From Oscillospiraceae bacterium (GTDB lineage: Bacteria > Bacillota > Clostridia > Oscillospirales > Oscillospiraceae): a DNA stretch of 49,419 nt. The notes under the pieces are model-generated. The model had not been told where the DNA came from. It was given only the letters and a program-made list of their open reading frames with translations, and ran no database searches. The stretch covers positions 1 to 49,419 of the forward strand of contig JAFVZT010000012.1 of the NCBI GenBank assembly GCA_017508045.1, given 5' to 3'. The position numbers and the translations under genes were made by a program. This document shows, piece by piece, positions 4,234-49,419 of this stretch; position 1 is the stretch's first letter, and each line of letters begins with the position of its first letter.

Positions 4234-5361
4234 TTACTCCTTATTTCCCAATGCTTCCATAATATCGCAGACACGCTCTGCAGAATCGGGAATGCACAGT
4301 TTATGAAGCGCTTTGCTCATCCTTTCACGGATGCTTGTGTCCTGAAGCAATGATGCGATTTGTTCCATCAGTGCCTCAGCCGTACAGTCCTTTTCCAACA
4401 TCAGAATTGCTGCACCCACATCCGCCAAGGCTCTTGCGTTTTTTTCCTGGTGGTTATCCGTTACATTCGGTGACGGAATTAAAATACAGGGTGTCCCGGA
4501 GGCGGCAAGCTCATTGCAGGTAGATGCACCGGCACGGCTGATAATCACATCCGCCGCCGCCATAACCGTGGGCATATTGTAAATATACTCCTGCATAGAT
4601 ATGCCTTTATTCTCAGACAAATCTACACCCTTTTTCAAGACTAAATCCGGCATCCAGTCACTTCCGTAGCTGCCGGTTGCATGGATATGCCGGTAGGGAT
4701 ATCCCGCGTTTTGCTCCAAGGCAAACAGATCCGCCATTGTTTCGTTCATCACCTTTGCGCCTTGACTGCCAAAGGCGGATACAATTAAGGGTCGCTCGTC
4801 CAAGTCAAGCTCCCTGCGGGCAGCTTCCCGCCCGGTAAAAATAAATTCCTTACGCACCGGCATACCCACTACCTCTACCCTGTCGGGATGACGGTAATAT
4901 TTTGCGCTCTCAGAAAAGCAAACCAGAACCTTATCCGCCCGTTTTGCAATCATTCGGGTTGTCAGCCCCGGCATAGCGTTGGCCTCGTGTACGCAAATCG
5001 GCACACCCAAACAGCTGGCCGCCAAAAGCGCGGGAAAGCTGGCATAACCGCCGGTACCCACAACCACATCTGCTTTAAACTCCCGAATAATCTTCTTGCA
5101 GGCAGAAACAGACTGTAAAACATAACCGATTGATTGCAGATTGTGCTTAATTGCCTGAAGATTCTTCCCTCTCGACATTCCGGTTGCAGGAATGGTGCGC
5201 AAATCGTAACCAGCTTGGGGAACCAATCGTTCTTCCATACGGTTTTTCGCGCCGATAAAAAGAATCTTGCTGTCCGGATGCCGTTGCTTCCACACATTGG
5301 CGACAGCAATGGCAGGATTAATATGTCCGCCTGTTCCGCCGCAGGTAAAAATCACATTCAT
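4234..5361 (-). CDS. murG: UDP-GlcNAc:lipid I GlcNAc transferase MurG
   Basis: 375 residues, normal MurG length. The enzyme adds GlcNAc to undecaprenyl-PP-MurNAc-pentapeptide to give lipid II at the inner membrane face. Seen: the N-terminal GGTGGHI loop (residues 8-14), the HEANAMPG stretch, and a C-terminal donor site with ISRAGASTCNELAA followed by IPSPNVTDNHQEKNA. The open frame runs further upstream, but the ATG at 5361 overlaps the ftsW stop as ATGA and starts the conserved domain, so it is the start. Confidence 0.97.
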   Translation of the reverse strand: MNVIFTCGGTGGHINPAIAVANVWKQRHPDSKILFIGAKNRMEERLVPQAGYDLRTIPATGMSRGKNLQAIKHNLQSIGYVLQSVSACKKIIREFKADVVVGTGGYASFPALLAASCLGVPICVHEANAMPGLTTRMIAKRADKVLVCFSESAKYYRHPDRVEVVGMPVRKEFIFTGREAARRELDLDERPLIVSAFGSQGAKVMNETMADLFALEQNAGYPYRHIHATGSYGSDWMPDLVLKKGVDLSENKGISMQEYIYNMPTVMAAADVIISRAGASTCNELAASGTPCILIPSPNVTDNHQEKNARALADVGAAILMLEKDCTAEALMEQIASLLQDTSIRERMSKALHKLCIPDSAERVCDIMEALGNKE

Positions 5362-6521
5362 TGTATAGCCTCCTGTCGAGCCTGCTGATTTCTGTAACGG
5401 GAGATGCTTAATATAACCCCCATTTCCCCGAGATTTACGGCCAACGCCGTTCCTCCATAGGAGAAGAAGGGCAACGCAATTCCGGTAGAGGGCAAGAGGT
5501 TGGTCACAACCCCCAAATTCAGCACTGTTTGAACAGCAATCAAGGTAATCAGCCCGGATGCCAGAACCGTGGAAAATCGATCCGGCGCCCGCAAGGCAAT
5601 CCAATAGCCTCGCAAAAGCATTGCGGCAAACAATGCAATAATCAATGCGGCACCGATCAATCCGAGCTCTTCACATATAATGGCAAATATATAGTCGTTG
5701 TACTGAAATGGTAGATAAAGATACTTCTGTCTGCTTTTTCCAAACCCCCGACCGAACAGTCCGCCGGAACCAATGGCGTACAAGGACTGCAGAATTTGAT
5801 AACCGGTATCTCCGGGGTCTTGCTCCGGGTGCAGCCATGCCGTTACACGGTCACCGGCGTAACCCATAAAGCTGATATAAATTACAACAAACACCGCTGC
5901 GGCGCCTGCCCCTGCCAAAAGCCATTTGGGATTTGTTCCGGCAACAAACATCATCACCACTGCCACCATACCCATCAGCATTATGGCAGACAGGTGCTTT
6001 TCCAATGCCAGCGGCACCAAAATTCCCAAAAGCGCACTGCCGAAGCCTAAAACACCGTAGCGAAATTCCCTTGCGGATGTTCCAAACCCCTTTGTCAGTC
6101 TTGCAAAAAGTACAATCATAGTAAATTTGGCAATCTCTGACGGCTGAAATTGCAGGCCGGCTATGTTAATCCACCGCCGCGCGCCGTTGACAGATTCGCC
6201 AAACAGCAGCACCGACAACAGAAGCGCTATGCTCACTCCGTACAAAGGCCAAGCTGTGCGCAGCCAGAAATCCGGCGGTATCCGGCTTAATAAAATCATT
6301 GCCGCAATACCGATTACAGCACAAACACCTTGTTTCTGAAGATATCGCGTGGATATTGTATATCCCGTATCATACTCGCTTTGGGCGTAGCTTGCTGAAT
6401 ACAGCATAATAAGCCCCACCGCAAGCAGCAGCATAAGTAACAGTAAAAATGGAATATCGACACTCGTACCCGTCCGTAAACGGCGGTTCTCTTTGGTGCG
6501 CAGAACCTTCTGCCCACCCAT
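5358..6521 (-). CDS. ftsW: FtsW/SpoVE-type SEDS glycosyltransferase
   Basis: 387 residues with about ten hydrophobic segments. SEDS proteins polymerise lipid II into glycan strands together with a cognate class B PBP, here probably the FtsI gene of the same operon. Family marks seen are GVNGARRWI-like VNGARRWINIAG, the FQPSEIAKF motif, and the C-terminal GxTNLLPSTGIALPFFSYGG. The dcw position between mraY and murG favours FtsW; the paralogue SpoVE cannot be excluded from sequence alone. AAGGAG precedes the ATG. Confidence 0.93.
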   Translation of the reverse strand: MGGQKVLRTKENRRLRTGTSVDIPFLLLLMLLLAVGLIMLYSASYAQSEYDTGYTISTRYLQKQGVCAVIGIAAMILLSRIPPDFWLRTAWPLYGVSIALLLSVLLFGESVNGARRWINIAGLQFQPSEIAKFTMIVLFARLTKGFGTSAREFRYGVLGFGSALLGILVPLALEKHLSAIMLMGMVAVVMMFVAGTNPKWLLAGAGAAAVFVVIYISFMGYAGDRVTAWLHPEQDPGDTGYQILQSLYAIGSGGLFGRGFGKSRQKYLYLPFQYNDYIFAIICEELGLIGAALIIALFAAMLLRGYWIALRAPDRFSTVLASGLITLIAVQTVLNLGVVTNLLPSTGIALPFFSYGGTALAVNLGEMGVILSISRYRNQQARQEAIQ

Positions 6522-6532
6522 AAAATCGCTCC

Positions 6533-7510
6533 TTATACTACTTTACCGGCAATGCCAAACCAAGCCAATACGCACATCAATGCAGTAATTCCGGCAAAAA
6601 TCAACACAATTTTTTCTTCCTTCCAGCCACTCATTTCAAAATGGTGGTGGATCGGTGCCATTTTAAAAATCCGCTTGCCGTGGGTTAGTTTAAAATACCC
6701 AACCTGCAAGATAACCGACAACGTTTCCACAATGTAAACGAAGCCTACCAAAATCAATATTAACGGCATGTCCAAAGCAAAGGCAAGGGCGCACACCACG
6801 CCGCCGAGGAACAGTGAGCCGGTATCACCCATAAACACCTTGGCCGGATGCCAGTTATAGAAAAGATATGCTATCAAACCGCCTGTCAAAGATGCCGGAA
6901 GCAGCGCCATATCCAACCGTTCCATAGCAAATGCCGCCACTGTAAAAAATGCCATAACCGGAATGGTGACAGACCCGCACAAACCATCGATGCCGTCTGT
7001 CAGGTTAACCGCATTTACACAGCCAACCATAACAAACATAGCAAAGAAAATATATACAAGGGGATGGATTTGGTAAGTTACATTGGCAAACGGGATGTAT
7101 AGGTCGCAGGACATAACCCCCTGCTTATAAAGCAGATACAGATACAGTGCCGATACCGCCATCTGCAGCATTGCTTTCTGTAAAGATGTAAGTCCGAGAT
7201 TTCTTTTGAATTTTAATTTAAAAAAATCATCCAAAAACCCTACCAGGCCAAAGCACAAAGAAAGCGCTAAAACATAGAAAACCGTATAGTCCTCCATGAC
7301 GATAATATTGGATACAAGGCAAATAATTGTGGCCAAAATAAACATCAAACCACCCATCATAGGTGTTCCGGCCTTATAATTGTGCCAAGTAGGTCCGACG
7401 TCACGAATAGACTGACCGGCCTTTAATGCCCGCAACACAGGCAACAGAAGCCAACCGATGCCACCGCTTAACACAGCGCCTACCACAGCTGTTACTAATA
7501 TTCTCGTCAT
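6533..7510 (-). CDS. mraY: Phospho-MurNAc-pentapeptide transferase MraY
   Basis: 325 residues, polytopic. MraY transfers phospho-MurNAc-pentapeptide from UDP to undecaprenyl phosphate, making lipid I. Seen: GTPMMGGLMF (near residue 49), GFLDDFFK with the catalytic aspartates (near 88), NLTDGIDGLCG (near 168), the KVFMGDTGSLFLGG loop and the C-terminal MAPIHHHFE histidine motif. GGAGGGAG precedes the ATG. murD, normally between mraY and ftsW, is missing; ftsW follows after 11 bp. Confidence 0.97.
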   Translation of the reverse strand: MTRILVTAVVGAVLSGGIGWLLLPVLRALKAGQSIRDVGPTWHNYKAGTPMMGGLMFILATIICLVSNIIVMEDYTVFYVLALSLCFGLVGFLDDFFKLKFKRNLGLTSLQKAMLQMAVSALYLYLLYKQGVMSCDLYIPFANVTYQIHPLVYIFFAMFVMVGCVNAVNLTDGIDGLCGSVTIPVMAFFTVAAFAMERLDMALLPASLTGGLIAYLFYNWHPAKVFMGDTGSLFLGGVVCALAFALDMPLILILVGFVYIVETLSVILQVGYFKLTHGKRIFKMAPIHHHFEMSGWKEEKIVLIFAGITALMCVLAWFGIAGKVV

Positions 7511-7524
7511 GGTGCTCCCTCCGA

Positions 7525-8883
7525 CTATTTCTCTTCCTGTAAAAACATATCCAGAGCAATTTCCATATGCATTCCGTGGCTGCCCTTAAACAGCAGTACA
7601 TCTCCCGGCCGGGCTGTCTGCTTCAACGCATCCACCAGCTTTTGCCTGTCCTCAAAGGCGTTGACCATCGCAGCAGGCATTCCTCCGGTAATTGCGCCGC
7701 TGAGCATACGGTCACTGTTCGGTCCATAAGCAAACAGCATATCCGCCTTTTCGGCAGCAATTCTTCCTACCTTATAATGCTCCGCCTGGGTGCAAACGCC
7801 AAGCTCCAGCATATCTCCCAGAACCGCAATGCGCCGTCCTTCTTTTCCACTCAGCACAGCCAGGGCTGCCGCCATGGATTCCGGACCCGCGTTATAGCAA
7901 TCCTTAATAATTGTGTATTCGCCTGCTTTGAAAATTTCCTGTCTGCCATCCATGTTTTGAAAAACGGACAGCACTTTTTGTATATTCTCCGCAGAAACGC
8001 CATAATGCAGGCCGACGGCAACTGCTGCCAAGGCATCCGGAACGTAATGCTCTCCCTCCAGAGGCAATTCTATGGAGAAGGAATGATTTTTCCAAGAAAC
8101 TTCAAATTGCAGTTTATCATTATTTTGGACAATATTCTGACCCAAAACCTCACTGTGTGTATTGCTTGTTCCAAAGTAGGTAACCCCGGGAATGCTTTTG
8201 TGCAGGTTCCACAGAAGCGGATCATCTCCATTGAGTATAATACCGCCGCGTTCACTCATGCCCTCCAAAATTTCAAGCTTCGCCTGAAGAATGCCCTCCA
8301 TAGAGCCAAGGTGTTCAATATGCATCGTTCCGATATTGACAATAATGGCTACATCAGGCTTTGCAATTCCGCTTAAATAGGCAATTTCTCCAAAATGGTT
8401 CATACCCATTTCCAAAACAGCAATTTGCGTATCCTCGGGCATAGCAAGAATTGCCATAGGCATTCCGATGTCGTTGTTATGATTTACAGGTGTTTTGCTG
8501 ACAGCATATGTACTGCTTAAAACAGCGGCAACCATTTCCTTCGTTGTACTTTTTCCCACAGAGCCGGTGATGCCTACAACCTTCACGCCCAGCCTTTGGC
8601 GCTCCTGTCTTGCAATATCTCCAAGGGCAATTCGGGTATCCTTTACAACAATGGCCGGGTAATCTCCGTCACATTTGGTACACAGCACTGCTGCCGCGCC
8701 CTTTTCAAAGGCCGCAGGAATAAAATCATGTCCGTCCCGTGCCCCCTGCAGCGCCACAAACAGCTCTCCGGAATTTAAGTTCCGTGTATCATTGTTGGCG
8801 CCAAAAAAGGTGATGTCTTTATATTTGGGATTTATCTGACCGCCACACCAAGCAGCGGCTTGTTCCAGTGTAATCCTGCCCAT
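7525..8883 (-). CDS. murF: UDP-MurNAc-tripeptide:D-Ala-D-Ala ligase MurF
   Basis: 452 residues. MurF adds D-Ala-D-Ala to the cytoplasmic precursor, using ATP. The ATP loop reads GSVGKSTTKEM (near residue 110) and the HNNDIGMP and EMGMNHFGEI motifs follow; the C-terminal domain has CYNAGPESM. The start MGRITLEQ at 8883 is 1 bp after the murE stop and has GAGGAA in front; the longer upstream frame only covers the end of murE in another frame. Confidence 0.96.
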   Translation of the reverse strand: MGRITLEQAAAWCGGQINPKYKDITFFGANNDTRNLNSGELFVALQGARDGHDFIPAAFEKGAAAVLCTKCDGDYPAIVVKDTRIALGDIARQERQRLGVKVVGITGSVGKSTTKEMVAAVLSSTYAVSKTPVNHNNDIGMPMAILAMPEDTQIAVLEMGMNHFGEIAYLSGIAKPDVAIIVNIGTMHIEHLGSMEGILQAKLEILEGMSERGGIILNGDDPLLWNLHKSIPGVTYFGTSNTHSEVLGQNIVQNNDKLQFEVSWKNHSFSIELPLEGEHYVPDALAAVAVGLHYGVSAENIQKVLSVFQNMDGRQEIFKAGEYTIIKDCYNAGPESMAAALAVLSGKEGRRIAVLGDMLELGVCTQAEHYKVGRIAAEKADMLFAYGPNSDRMLSGAITGGMPAAMVNAFEDRQKLVDALKQTARPGDVLLFKGSHGMHMEIALDMFLQEEK

Positions 8884-47027: not shown

Positions 47028-47440
47028 GGCGGGGACAACCGTGTCCCCTTGCCCCACAAATTTCTCCGTAAAAGCAACTGAATAAATACTGCCCCAAATT
47101 CATTTTTTAAACCGAGGGATTGCGGTTATTTGTTGTGCGCGTTTTTGACTGCTGCTTTTCAAAAGGGTTCACGCAAACCGTCACCTGTCTTGTTTGGTTG
47201 ATGTGGGTTTTTCTTAGGAGACAGGAGAACCGTCCCTCCGTCCCTAATTTAATTTTTAAGCCGAGGGATTGCGGTTACTTGTTATGCGCCTTTTTAAGCG
47301 TTACTTTTCAATAGGGTTCACGCAAACCGTCCCCTGTCTTTCCGCTTTCTAATAGGGTTCACGCAAACCGTCCCCCTGTCCTCCTGTGCTAGGACGTCCC
47401 GTGTGATTTGGGCCAACACACAGTACCGTCCCCTGTGTTA
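47028..47440. repeat. Cluster of ACCGTCCCC-core repeats
   Basis: The non-coding stretch from 46939 to 47451 is largely repeats. Two 88-bp units (47104-47191 and 47253-47340), from TTTTTAARCCGAGGGATTGC to AAACCGTCMCCTGTCTT, differ at about 11 positions. A shorter copy (GGGTTCACGCAAACCGTCCCCC) is at 47354-47380. Related short tags are GAACCGTCCCTCC (47228-47240), GTACCGTCCCCTGTG (47423-47437) and the hairpin GGGGACA-ACCG-TGTCCCC (47031-47048). From 46939 to 47027 I see nothing else. The same family flanks the Rhs gene on the other side. They look like REP-type sequences. Confidence 0.85.
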
Positions 47441-47451
47441 TGCGCTACAAG

Positions 47452-47712
47452 TCACATAACCACCGTCATAACCATAAGGAATAAGAGTACACTCATGAAC
47501 AAAAAGTAGCCGTATGTTAATTTGTCATATACTAACTTTTTTTTATTTTTAATTTCTTCCTTGCTGAATCCAAGATGACCTTGTTTTTTGTGCCACTTAT
47601 TGTCATCCTCCAAAGCCCATACAATAAACCTACGTGCAAGAAAATATGCAATTGTAATCACAATCATCAATCCAATAATGAGAAAGAGATCAAAAAAGTC
47701 GATAACGTTCAT
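47452..47712 (-). CDS. Small two-helix membrane protein, candidate immunity protein of the Rhs toxin
   Basis: 86 residues. Two membrane helices (about 6-32, FFDLFLIIGLMIVITIAYFL, and 66-86, YGYFLFMSVLLFLMVM) flank a charged cytoplasmic loop (DDNKWHKKQGHLGFSKEEIKNKKK). ATTGGAGG precedes the ATG. It lies 105 bp downstream of the Rhs C-terminal gene on the same strand and shares its AT-rich composition, the usual place for the cognate immunity gene. No family recognised; the immunity role is inferred from position and from the membrane-active look of the toxin tip. Confidence 0.7.
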   Translation of the reverse strand: MNVIDFFDLFLIIGLMIVITIAYFLARRFIVWALEDDNKWHKKQGHLGFSKEEIKNKKKLVYDKLTYGYFLFMSVLLFLMVMTVVM

Positions 47713-47817
47713 ATAGTGTCCTCCAATTATCTGCCTAGCCTAAACACTTGAAAAAAGTAAAAATATAATCCTTGGGTTTAAAGGTATAGATGTTCACTTT
47801 GGTTGCATATTTACATG

Positions 47818-48894
47818 CTATTTTTCTGCCCTGGCCTCAAAATAATTATCCAAAAAACTGCCAATTATTTCACCTAAAAGGTAACCTGCAACACCGCCTA
47901 AAGCGGGTATAAATTTGGATATAAATTTAATTCCCTTATTAACGCACCAACTGAGCAATGCCGAAAGACCTTCTGCAATTTTTTTGAATAATTTAGTTGC
48001 AATTTCCTTTACAAAAGATGTTACCTTCTTTAAAGAGTCAATAATTGATGTGACAAACAAGACATAGGTCAACGCTTTAAAAATCTTTCCGACTTTGGTT
48101 TTTAACTTATCTACTTTACCGGCAACCCAATTAAAGCACTGCCTAACACGATGGGGACTTCGTTTTACATCCTTTGCAATCTTACTTATATCTTTCCAGC
48201 GCAAATTTGCTTTAACTCCCAAAAGCCAACTTGCGCCATCAATAAGCTGTTCTAATATACTTTTCGCCTTTTCTCCTAATCTATTAAACACTGAGAGGAT
48301 TTTGCTCCACGAAATTGCTCCGTTACTATCAAAATTATTAATGACATTATTCTCACAGTATGAATACAGGTTAACTTCAAGCACATCATGTGTTGCAACA
48401 ATATTCACAATCGTATCAGAGGAAAGAAATCTACCCACAATCGGGTCATAATATCTACTTTGGAGGTAGTACAAGCCCGTCTCGGTGTCGTAGACATAGC
48501 CCCGGTAGCGCAGGGGGTTAATGGCACCCAGGGTGGCTGCCATAGTGCCGGTGGTGGAAAGCAGGTTGCCCCAGGCGTCGTAGCTGTAGCTGACTACAAG
48601 CTGTCCCGCAGCATTGAGGATGCCTACCACATCACCCTGGAGGTTGGTTACATAGTAGTATGCTGTGCCGTTATAGAACACCTTCATGGGCTGTCCCACA
48701 GCATCGTAGATAAAGTCCAGGGTGTCCGTTCCCATGGTCATACGGCTCAGGGTACTGCCGTTGTAGATGTACCGGTAGGTGGTTGTGCCGTTGGAGCGCT
48801 GGGTGCGCATACCGTCGGCGTTGTAGGGGTAGTTCCAGGTAGTTGTGCTATTGGACACGGCTGCCATGCTCCCAGGACGGCTCCGTGTCAACAC
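47818..48894 (-). CDS. Orphan Rhs C-terminal fragment with a putative membrane-active toxin tip
   Basis: 358 residues. Residues 15-192 are the end of an Rhs/YD-repeat shell: YD-type repeats (YNADGMRTQRSNG, FIYDAVGQPM), then the conserved core ending RYYDPIVGRFLSSD and NLYSYCENNVINNFDSNG. The variable tip (193-358) has no catalytic motif I recognise; it is Lys-rich and helical with hydrophobic stretches at 274-288 and 309-352, the last glycine-rich (IPALGGVAGYLLGEIIGSF), like a pore-forming peptide. The shell part is GC-rich and the tip AT-rich, typical of swapped Rhs tips. The reading frame begins (GTG) inside a repeat unit, with no signal peptide or N-terminal Rhs part, so it is probably a 5'-truncated, displaced cassette. 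An alternative GTG start lies at codon 13 (VSNSTTTWN), with no Shine-Dalgarno seen. Confidence 0.85.
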   Translation of the reverse strand: MLTRSRPGSMAAVSNSTTTWNYPYNADGMRTQRSNGTTTYRYIYNGSTLSRMTMGTDTLDFIYDAVGQPMKVFYNGTAYYYVTNLQGDVVGILNAAGQLVVSYSYDAWGNLLSTTGTMAATLGAINPLRYRGYVYDTETGLYYLQSRYYDPIVGRFLSSDTIVNIVATHDVLEVNLYSYCENNVINNFDSNGAISWSKILSVFNRLGEKAKSILEQLIDGASWLLGVKANLRWKDISKIAKDVKRSPHRVRQCFNWVAGKVDKLKTKVGKIFKALTYVLFVTSIIDSLKKVTSFVKEIATKLFKKIAEGLSALLSWCVNKGIKFISKFIPALGGVAGYLLGEIIGSFLDNYFEARAEK

Positions 48895-49104
48895 ACAGAA
48901 CCGTCCCCTGTGCTAAAAGGCACAAAATGTAACGTTATTCAGCTGATTTTGGACATTGGAGCATTTTTGCTCCAATGTCCAAGATTCAAATCAATAAAAC
49001 AGCTTAACTTCGCTTAAAACACCCACTTTTTCAGTGGTTTCAAACCGTCCCCTGTCTTAACTACTGCTTTTCAAAAGGGTTCACGCAAACCGTCCCCTGT
49101 CTTG
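48868..49104. repeat. Repeats and hairpins at the 5' side of the Rhs fragment
   Basis: Between the Rhs fragment and the next gene are GAACCGTCCCCTGTGC (48899-48914), AAACCGTCCCCTGTCTT (49042-49058) and a longer copy ending ...GGGTTCACGCAAACCGTCCCCTGTCTT (to 49103), all of the family at 47028-47440. GACACGGAGCCGTCCTGGGAG (minus strand, about 48869-48890) runs into the Rhs frame. A perfect 15-bp stem with a TTTT loop lies at 48949-48982 (TTGGACATTGGAGCA and its complement), without a clear T-run on either side. Confidence 0.8.
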
Positions 49105-49111
49105 TTGTCCC

Positions 49112-49419
49112 TTAAATAACACTCATCTTCGTTCTTGTGTCATTATCATCCTTAATATAGCGCACATTTTGGAAACCACTACTAACTACATATTGATATG
49201 TTTCCTCAATCATAGCTCGATCTTTTATGTATAGATCGACATAACAGCAATCATGTGCCAACAAAAGAATCTGGCACTTACTTTTTTGGAAATCGCTATA
49301 TGACAGTATTTCATCATATTTGTCATGTGGAAAGTAAGCCTGAAGCTTGAGAAAAATCACAAAATGCTCCTGTTTTATTGTCTCATAAAATTCGGAACCA
49401 TCGTATATAAAATTGTCGA
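49112..49419 (-). CDS. Partial gene resembling DUF2691, cut by the window edge
   Basis: The minus-strand frame is open to the window edge, so at least 101 codons are seen and the true start lies outside. The 3' part reads FLKLQAYFPHDKYDEI, then CQILLLAHDCCYVDLYIKD, and ends GFQNVRYIKDDNDTRTKMSVI, which I recall as the pattern of the DUF2691 family of small soluble proteins. It sits directly upstream of the repeat-bounded Rhs fragment; genes at such places are often immunity genes left from an earlier Rhs tip. Function not known. Confidence 0.6.
   Translation of the reverse strand, partial: DNFIYDGSEFYETIKQEHFVIFLKLQAYFPHDKYDEILSYSDFQKSKCQILLLAHDCCYVDLYIKDRAMIEETYQYVVSSGFQNVRYIKDDNDTRTKMSVI

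Follow-up and report, generated by a model that had tools for sequence, protein, structure and literature searches.

An orphan Rhs cassette encoding a candidate membrane-active tip and a putative two-helix immunity protein in a relative of Oscillospiraceae

Introduction

What might the variable tip of an Rhs protein do to a target cell when it resembles no known enzyme, and is the small membrane protein encoded next to it the partner that protects the producer? The question is raised by a locus on the minus strand near the end of contig C3, the whole of which (49,419 bases) was analysed here and is called the window below. The contig comes from a genome of 1.46 Mb in 31 contigs, about 76% complete, and the host is an uncultured bacterium related to MAGs labelled Oscillospiraceae. 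A preliminary description of this DNA had proposed an undescribed pair of an Rhs toxin, thought to form pores, and a membrane immunity protein.

Results

A truncated Rhs gene with an AT-rich tip

The Rhs reading frame (47818-48894, minus strand) starts with GTG and encodes 358 residues; its limits, like those of the 86-residue frame considered below, agreed exactly with the preliminary description. The first 192 residues (48319-48894) are a GC-rich, truncated C-terminal piece of an Rhs core. TIGR03696 (Rhs_assc_core) matched residues 105-192 with 75 bits (E 5e-21) and ends at DSNG, bearing out both the core and the junction after DSNG that had been described there; the RHS_repeat model scored 24.7 bits on the core piece in one scan, over the cut-off, and 21.2 bits in another, just below it. 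Residues 193-358 (47821-48318) form the variable tip, which is Lys-rich, amphipathic and AT-rich. The GC content is 57.6% in the core (48461-48894), 35.9% in the tip and 32.6% in the small gene, with 48% for the window. Since an N-terminal domain is missing and the start codon sits inside a flanking repeat, the fragment is an orphan cassette rather than an intact Rhs gene.

A longer Rhs gene is present in the same genome on contig C21. It encodes at least 1446 residues with a signal-like start, judged by eye, and its 3' part lies off the contig end; the main gene and the cassette may therefore be one locus split by the assembly. Beside the main gene (locus L043, C21 1-12000, at 5038-7956) are genes for a LytTR response regulator, a GHKL sensor kinase and AgrB, an agr-like quorum-sensing set adjoining a contact toxin gene.

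When the core was searched in the genome collection, 77 loci were obtained out of 148 confirmed matches. The best belong to MAGs labelled Oscillospiraceae and others to Lachnospiraceae, Clostridia and Bacilli, with animal guts as the source of many. The Rhs fragment was matched in 32 of the 136 genus genomes (its own included), several of which hold at least two core-tip cassettes on a single contig. For comparison, 137 distinct tips of at least 60 residues were collected from 116 sequences. A gene with a Shine-Dalgarno-like site follows within 200 nt in 108 of the 137, at a median gap of 12 nt, so that a tip with a small gene after it is the usual unit, and the 86-residue frame occupies that slot. 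Upstream of the cassette, a DUF2691 gene (49112-49417, minus strand; Pfam PF10903, E 5.8e-23) is cut by the contig end. From its position it possibly closes a further cassette upstream, whose immunity slot it would fill, and DUF2691 may be an immunity family; a literature search for DUF2691 together with 'immunity' gave no paper.

The tip matches no enzymatic toxin family

The preliminary description had noted that the tip shows no nuclease, deaminase or ART signature, and had proposed profile searches of both proteins. In these, neither the tip nor the 86-residue protein reached a Pfam or NCBIfam cut-off, and the tip matched no enzymatic toxin family in Pfam, NCBIfam, PADLOC or PDB sequences (E <=1 for the last); identity with a known enzymatic toxin, which would have spoken against the proposal, was thus not observed. 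Two sub-threshold results for the tip were read as helix composition and rejected: RIX1, at 21.7 bits against a cut-off of 27.4, and matches to phage tape-measure profiles, of which the best had E 8e-5.

Homologues were sought in 394 order genomes, 400 family genomes (the order, family and genus sets overlap), plasmids, viral contigs and, by pattern search, the genome contigs, and none was convincing. The whole Rhs fragment, searched against the 136 genus genomes, gave matches that cover the core and reach at furthest residue 236. Four matches of the tip search, L007 (a 385-residue membrane frame) and L084-L086, were rejected as chance helix similarity; we take them to resemble a transporter, a membrane-bound enzyme, a repeat protein of the tape-measure type and a membrane subunit. 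The best foreign match among 11,669 reading frames of the 116 sequences was L143 (E 0.69). No clear match was found among the 136 other tips either, where the best alignment, to L143_+_2855 (z 6.0, E 0.69), is suggestive only.

It was also observed that two Rhs tips, L048 8253-8735 and L163 986-1537, are alike by eye, that both stand before two-helix membrane genes, and that they have in common with the window's tip a C-terminal segment of the form IPVVG...G/A...D. This motif, which was built post hoc, occurs in three of the 137 tips, against a shuffle mean of 0.10, and in none of 2050 other frames. In whole-tip alignments with the window's tip, L163 was weakly supported (z 3.0) and L048 unsupported (z 0.1), and given these scores and the post hoc motif no homology is claimed. 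When the L163 tip was used to look for a wider family, one weak match turned up in 133 class genomes and none in plasmids or viral contigs.

Physical properties of the tip

The zipper, the helical moment and the hydrophobic windows were compared with 2000 composition-preserving shuffles. A perfect GxxxGxxxGxxxG, formed by Gly 333, 337, 341 and 345 of 358, lies within the C-terminal segment IPALGGVAGYLLGEIIGSFLD (residues 329-349; 47848-47910, minus strand) and begins 26 residues from the end. The motif arose anywhere in the shuffled tip in seven of the 2000 cases. It is present somewhere in 18 of the 137 tips and within the last 45 residues in the window's tip alone (1/137), a count that depends on the 45-residue limit since the L141 tip, which is followed by a soluble gene, has its motif beginning 47-48 residues from the end, just outside. 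Under a looser definition, seven of the 14 C-terminal zipper tips, the window's among them, stand before genes with at least two hydrophobic helices, compared with 34 of the 94 other tips, which is no clear difference.

The net charge of the tip (K+R-D-E) is +17, a value reached by 12 of the 137 tips including this one, and its mean helical moment is above that of all 2000 shuffles, a score that a soluble helical bundle would also achieve. These values agree with the earlier view of a Lys-rich, helical tip. The glycine-rich hydrophobic segment said to close the tip is likewise present, with its perfect zipper, but no 19-residue window of the tip attains the usual transmembrane threshold; the maximum is 1.38, which 1700 of the 2000 shuffles also attain. 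'Hydrophobic segment' is accordingly a correct term, and one that falls short of demonstrating a membrane helix.

Neighbouring genes and the mode of toxicity

The 137 tips were divided by the gene that follows: 41 precede a gene with at least two hydrophobic helices, 26 a gene with one and 41 a gene with none, and 29 have no neighbour and were left out of the enzyme scan (Pfam at E <=0.001, and NCBIfam). Among the 41 tips whose neighbour has at least two helices no enzyme family was found; Pfam gave two matches there, RIX1 (in the tip of the window itself, under the family cut-off) and a beta-sandwich domain. If these two matches are distinct members, 39 of the 41 have no Pfam match at E <=0.001; to judge by such scans, the family-less state is common among the Rhs tips of this set. 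Tips before soluble genes matched GIY-YIG (2), T5orf172, Ribonuclease, EndoU, AHH, Tox-WTIP, AXH and Hint/intein-type domains (two members per model) in Pfam. NCBIfam added two intein-like members to this group and nothing to the group with membrane neighbours. The 26 tips before one-helix genes gave Ntox44 (2), phospholipase C, peptidase M7 and two DUFs.

Toxin-family matches before soluble genes thus amount to five or six of 41, namely five nuclease members (GIY-YIG 2, Ribonuclease, EndoU, AHH) and one Tox-WTIP. Against 0 of 41 this gives a Fisher p of 0.055 for the five and 0.026 for the six, on the assumption of distinct members, which the tally itself does not show. The distribution fits the idea that membrane immunity proteins accompany tips outside the known enzyme families. 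The single Tox-WTIP member (E 1.1e-4) belongs to a family predicted to form pores (Zhang et al. 2012) and stands before a soluble gene, so the type of neighbour is no strict guide to the mode of a toxin.

The same considerations bear on another explanation, in which the cassette is genuine and the tip is a soluble helical toxin, for example nucleic-acid-binding or a divergent enzyme, with the membrane protein blocking its uptake or docking. The charge of +17 would suit a nucleic-acid target as well as a membrane, no window of the tip is hydrophobic enough for a transmembrane helix, and the Tox-WTIP case shows the opposite combination of a predicted pore former and a soluble neighbour. Moreover, two-transmembrane immunity proteins may act by preventing uptake, as suggested by Zhang et al. 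2012, and a two-helix membrane immunity protein is accordingly no proof of a pore. The absence of any enzyme family above cut-off in the tip, the lack of enzyme matches throughout the 41 tips with comparable neighbours and the C-terminal glycine zipper all argue the other way, and a soluble toxin is considered unlikely. Membrane action of the tip is the likely reading, drawn from the zipper, the cationic amphipathic helices and the membrane neighbour, with a pore as the preferred and plausible mode. On these three features the pore-forming mode proposed earlier is plausible, with insertion itself a putative step.

Short cationic Rhs tips were also seen at L132 6508-6807, L146 3400-3759 and L166 6340-6753 (Bacillus testis, Sporosarcina and Lysinibacillus). 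Each is followed by a membrane gene of 56-79 residues and has no C-terminal zipper. Neither these tips nor their neighbours had a Pfam match at E <=0.1.

Repeats and cassette architecture

The Rhs fragment and the small gene are bracketed by 27-nt direct repeats, 25 of 27 positions identical, on the minus strand. The upstream copy (48889-48915) forms the cassette edge and includes the GTG start codon of the fragment; the downstream copy (47414-47440) lies just past the stop of the 86-residue gene. The best ungapped match between the flanks scores 21, whereas none of 1000 mononucleotide shuffles exceeded 12. Around this pair is an outer repeat of the ACAGGGGACGGTTTGCGTGAACCC type (minus strand), with an upstream copy at 49057-49106, a downstream copy at 47294-47343 and others at 47145-47194 and, weaker, 47335-47384; its 24-mer, with two mismatches allowed, occurs three times in the assembly, each time in the surroundings of this cassette.

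The motif ACAGGGGACGG was sought near the stops of immunity-slot genes with one mismatch allowed, on either strand and up to 1500 nt away. It was found at 10 of the 108 cassettes, a count made with no position control. At seven of the ten the copy begins 5-28 nt after the stop (the window's at 15 nt, the six others at 5-28), and at the remaining three the nearest copy is 62-117 nt after it. Dispersed palindromic repeat elements are often located just past genes. The repeat, itself a palindromic element of this dispersed sort, is present in 24 of the 136 genus genomes, and an Rhs core in 7 of 30 of its loci examined, the window included. A dedicated cassette recombination site was considered for the flanking repeat and dropped in view of this dispersal and of DNA folding that is not unusual. 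Being dispersed in the genus, the repeat indicates where a real gene ends and where recombination might take place, rather than a special cassette site.

A dispersed palindromic, REP-like repeat, ACAGGGGACGGTNCTGTGT, was noted across 47145-49106 of the window. In the relative G441 this repeat forms many inverted pairs with starts 29 bases apart, an arrangement that resembles REPIN-type elements. Promoter-like sites occurred at chance level.

That the tip and the small gene form one toxin-immunity cassette is well supported by this architecture, that is, by the repeat bracket, the shared base composition, the immunity slot and the repeat just past the stop. The toxin-immunity pairing of the preliminary description is supported to this extent, as a bracketed AT-rich unit with the small gene in the right position, and the mode of the toxin is the more tentative part.

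The same architecture could also belong to functionless leftovers of a displaced cassette. The core is truncated inside the repeat, which now supplies the start codon, and the N-terminal part is missing. The gap between the Rhs stop and the small gene is long (105 nt; only 4 of 108 cassettes, this one included, have 105 nt or more), and in Streptococcus suis an orphan, truncated WapA tip was not delivered (PMC12704120). Against decay, both reading frames are open, the tip has a near usual length (166 residues; median 181, quartiles 167-191) and the small gene retains a good ribosome-binding site, GGAGG at 47720-47724, 7 nt before its ATG. Orphan Rhs tips can, furthermore, be re-expressed in evolved Salmonella (PMC3967940). 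A decayed remnant is regarded as quite improbable.

The 86-residue protein

The small gene (47452-47712, minus strand, ATG start) encodes 86 residues with two hydrophobic windows (KD19 >=1.6) and a Lys-rich loop between them. A next gene of 86 residues with two membrane helices had been described and is confirmed, with the reservation that two such windows also appeared in 206 of the 2000 shuffles, so that the result follows partly from composition. No Pfam or NCBIfam family was found above cut-off and none in PADLOC; cytochrome b561 (17.2 bits, cut-off 30.1) and lipoprotein signal peptidase (17.4 bits, cut-off 199) were rejected as sub-threshold.

No convincing homologue was found in 394 order genomes, 136 genus genomes, 264 phylum genomes and viral contigs. 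Fifteen weak matches were rejected, 13 of which fall in one conserved membrane family; of the other two, one is what we take to be YcxB-like and one a low-complexity frame. Among the 11,669 frames of the 116 sequences, the best foreign match, L082 (E 5.9e-4), is also of that membrane family. The small protein was therefore not seen to be widespread, whereas wide occurrence with no Rhs gene would have weighed against the pairing, and 'undescribed' is a fair word for both proteins within the libraries searched.

That the frame is an ordinary small membrane protein or a chance reading frame with no relation to the tip is very improbable, for the weak likeness of its helices to the one genus family and the frequency of two windows in shuffles are answered by the greater length of that family's open frames (157-199 residues), whose matches (E 1e-4 to 1e-2 per genome) cover mostly helix segments, and by the repeat bracket, immunity slot and base composition.

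Discussion

Taken as a whole, the locus is explained with moderate confidence as a displaced, orphan WapA-like Rhs cassette of a Gram-positive bacterium, with a membrane-inserting tip and an 86-residue membrane immunity protein. Until recombination joins it to the main gene, such a cassette would probably stay silent. Recombination in the common core could place the tip on the main Rhs protein, and the secreted protein would then deliver it to a neighbouring cell. There the tip might bind the target membrane through its cationic amphipathic helices, after which the C-terminal glycine zipper could insert, oligomerise and leak ions. The 86-residue protein, situated in the membrane of the producer, would stop insertion or assembly of the tip.

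By this comparison, the immunity slot seems to hold a membrane protein in about two in five of the Rhs cassettes that have a neighbour gene (41 of 108), and none of these tips matched a Pfam or NCBIfam toxin family. If the explanation given here is true, the window's pair is a small case of that uncharacterised group and an example of a glycine-zipper toxin being stopped by a protein with two helices; if it is not, the locus is one further orphan Rhs tip. It is possible, and put forward tentatively, that the pair represents a new family of pore-forming tips, cationic and with a glycine zipper, on secreted WapA-like Rhs proteins of Gram-positive bacteria, with tiny two-helix immunity proteins and shuffled as repeat-bracketed AT-rich cassettes; the L132, L146 and L166 pairs would then be further cases of this mode, unrelated in sequence.

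Comparison with known systems

Among described immunity families, Imm17 and Imm-CdiI are also proteins with two transmembrane helices associated with polymorphic toxins (Zhang et al. 2012). Imm17 has a WxW between its helices that the 86-residue protein does not have; the Pfam scan gave no Imm family for the latter, and Imm17 did not match at E <=1.

The arrangement of the locus recalls WapA of S. suis, where a secreted-type Rhs gene is accompanied by truncated duplications that each carry a separate tip and immunity gene; the difference is that the parts of that report consulted (PMC12704120) mention no WapA tip acting on membranes. More generally, a limited search of the literature, partly from excerpts, gave no Gram-positive example of a membrane-active Rhs or WapA tip.

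For the toxin itself, likeness is found in the LXG (type VIIb) systems TelE-TipE and EsxX-ExiAB/ExiCD (PMC10434224, PMC12744356), which also combine a C-terminal extended glycine zipper with no enzyme family. The zipper of TelE, in which glycines have been replaced by valine, is needed for toxicity, and that of EsxX, a membrane-depolarising toxin, lies close to the C terminus. The C-terminal GxxxGxxxG that characterises this group is present in residues 333-345 of the 358. EsxX is, moreover, neutralised from outside by membrane proteins, as could be the case in the window's pair. The carrier differs, being LXG and not Rhs, and so do the partners: TipE and ExiAB are soluble, and ExiC and ExiD are a polytopic pair. 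No LXG match was found in the window with Pfam or NCBIfam, and a relation to the TelE and EsxX toxin domains was judged by family and PDB searches.

The closest functional precedent is Tse5 with Tsi5 (PMC9637101). In Tse5 the Rhs-borne C-terminal tip, for which no enzyme activity is predicted, forms ion pores; the immunity protein Tsi5 has two predicted transmembrane regions, as the 86-residue protein seems to have. The predicted membrane and amphipathic helices of the Tse5 tip are counted as a further likeness. Tse5 is, in contrast, a Gram-negative type VI secretion (T6SS) effector of Pseudomonas aeruginosa encoded by an intact gene, and the window holds an orphan Gram-positive Rhs cassette with a zipper; the term 'glycine zipper' does not occur in the main text of the Tse5 paper. 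A PAAR-like N-terminus, as a feature of T6SS delivery, was absent from the fragment, and the available part of the main Rhs gene matches only RHS_repeat in Pfam. Family and PDB searches gave no sequence relationship between the two tips. The present pair is new in sequence, the kind of system being one already known.
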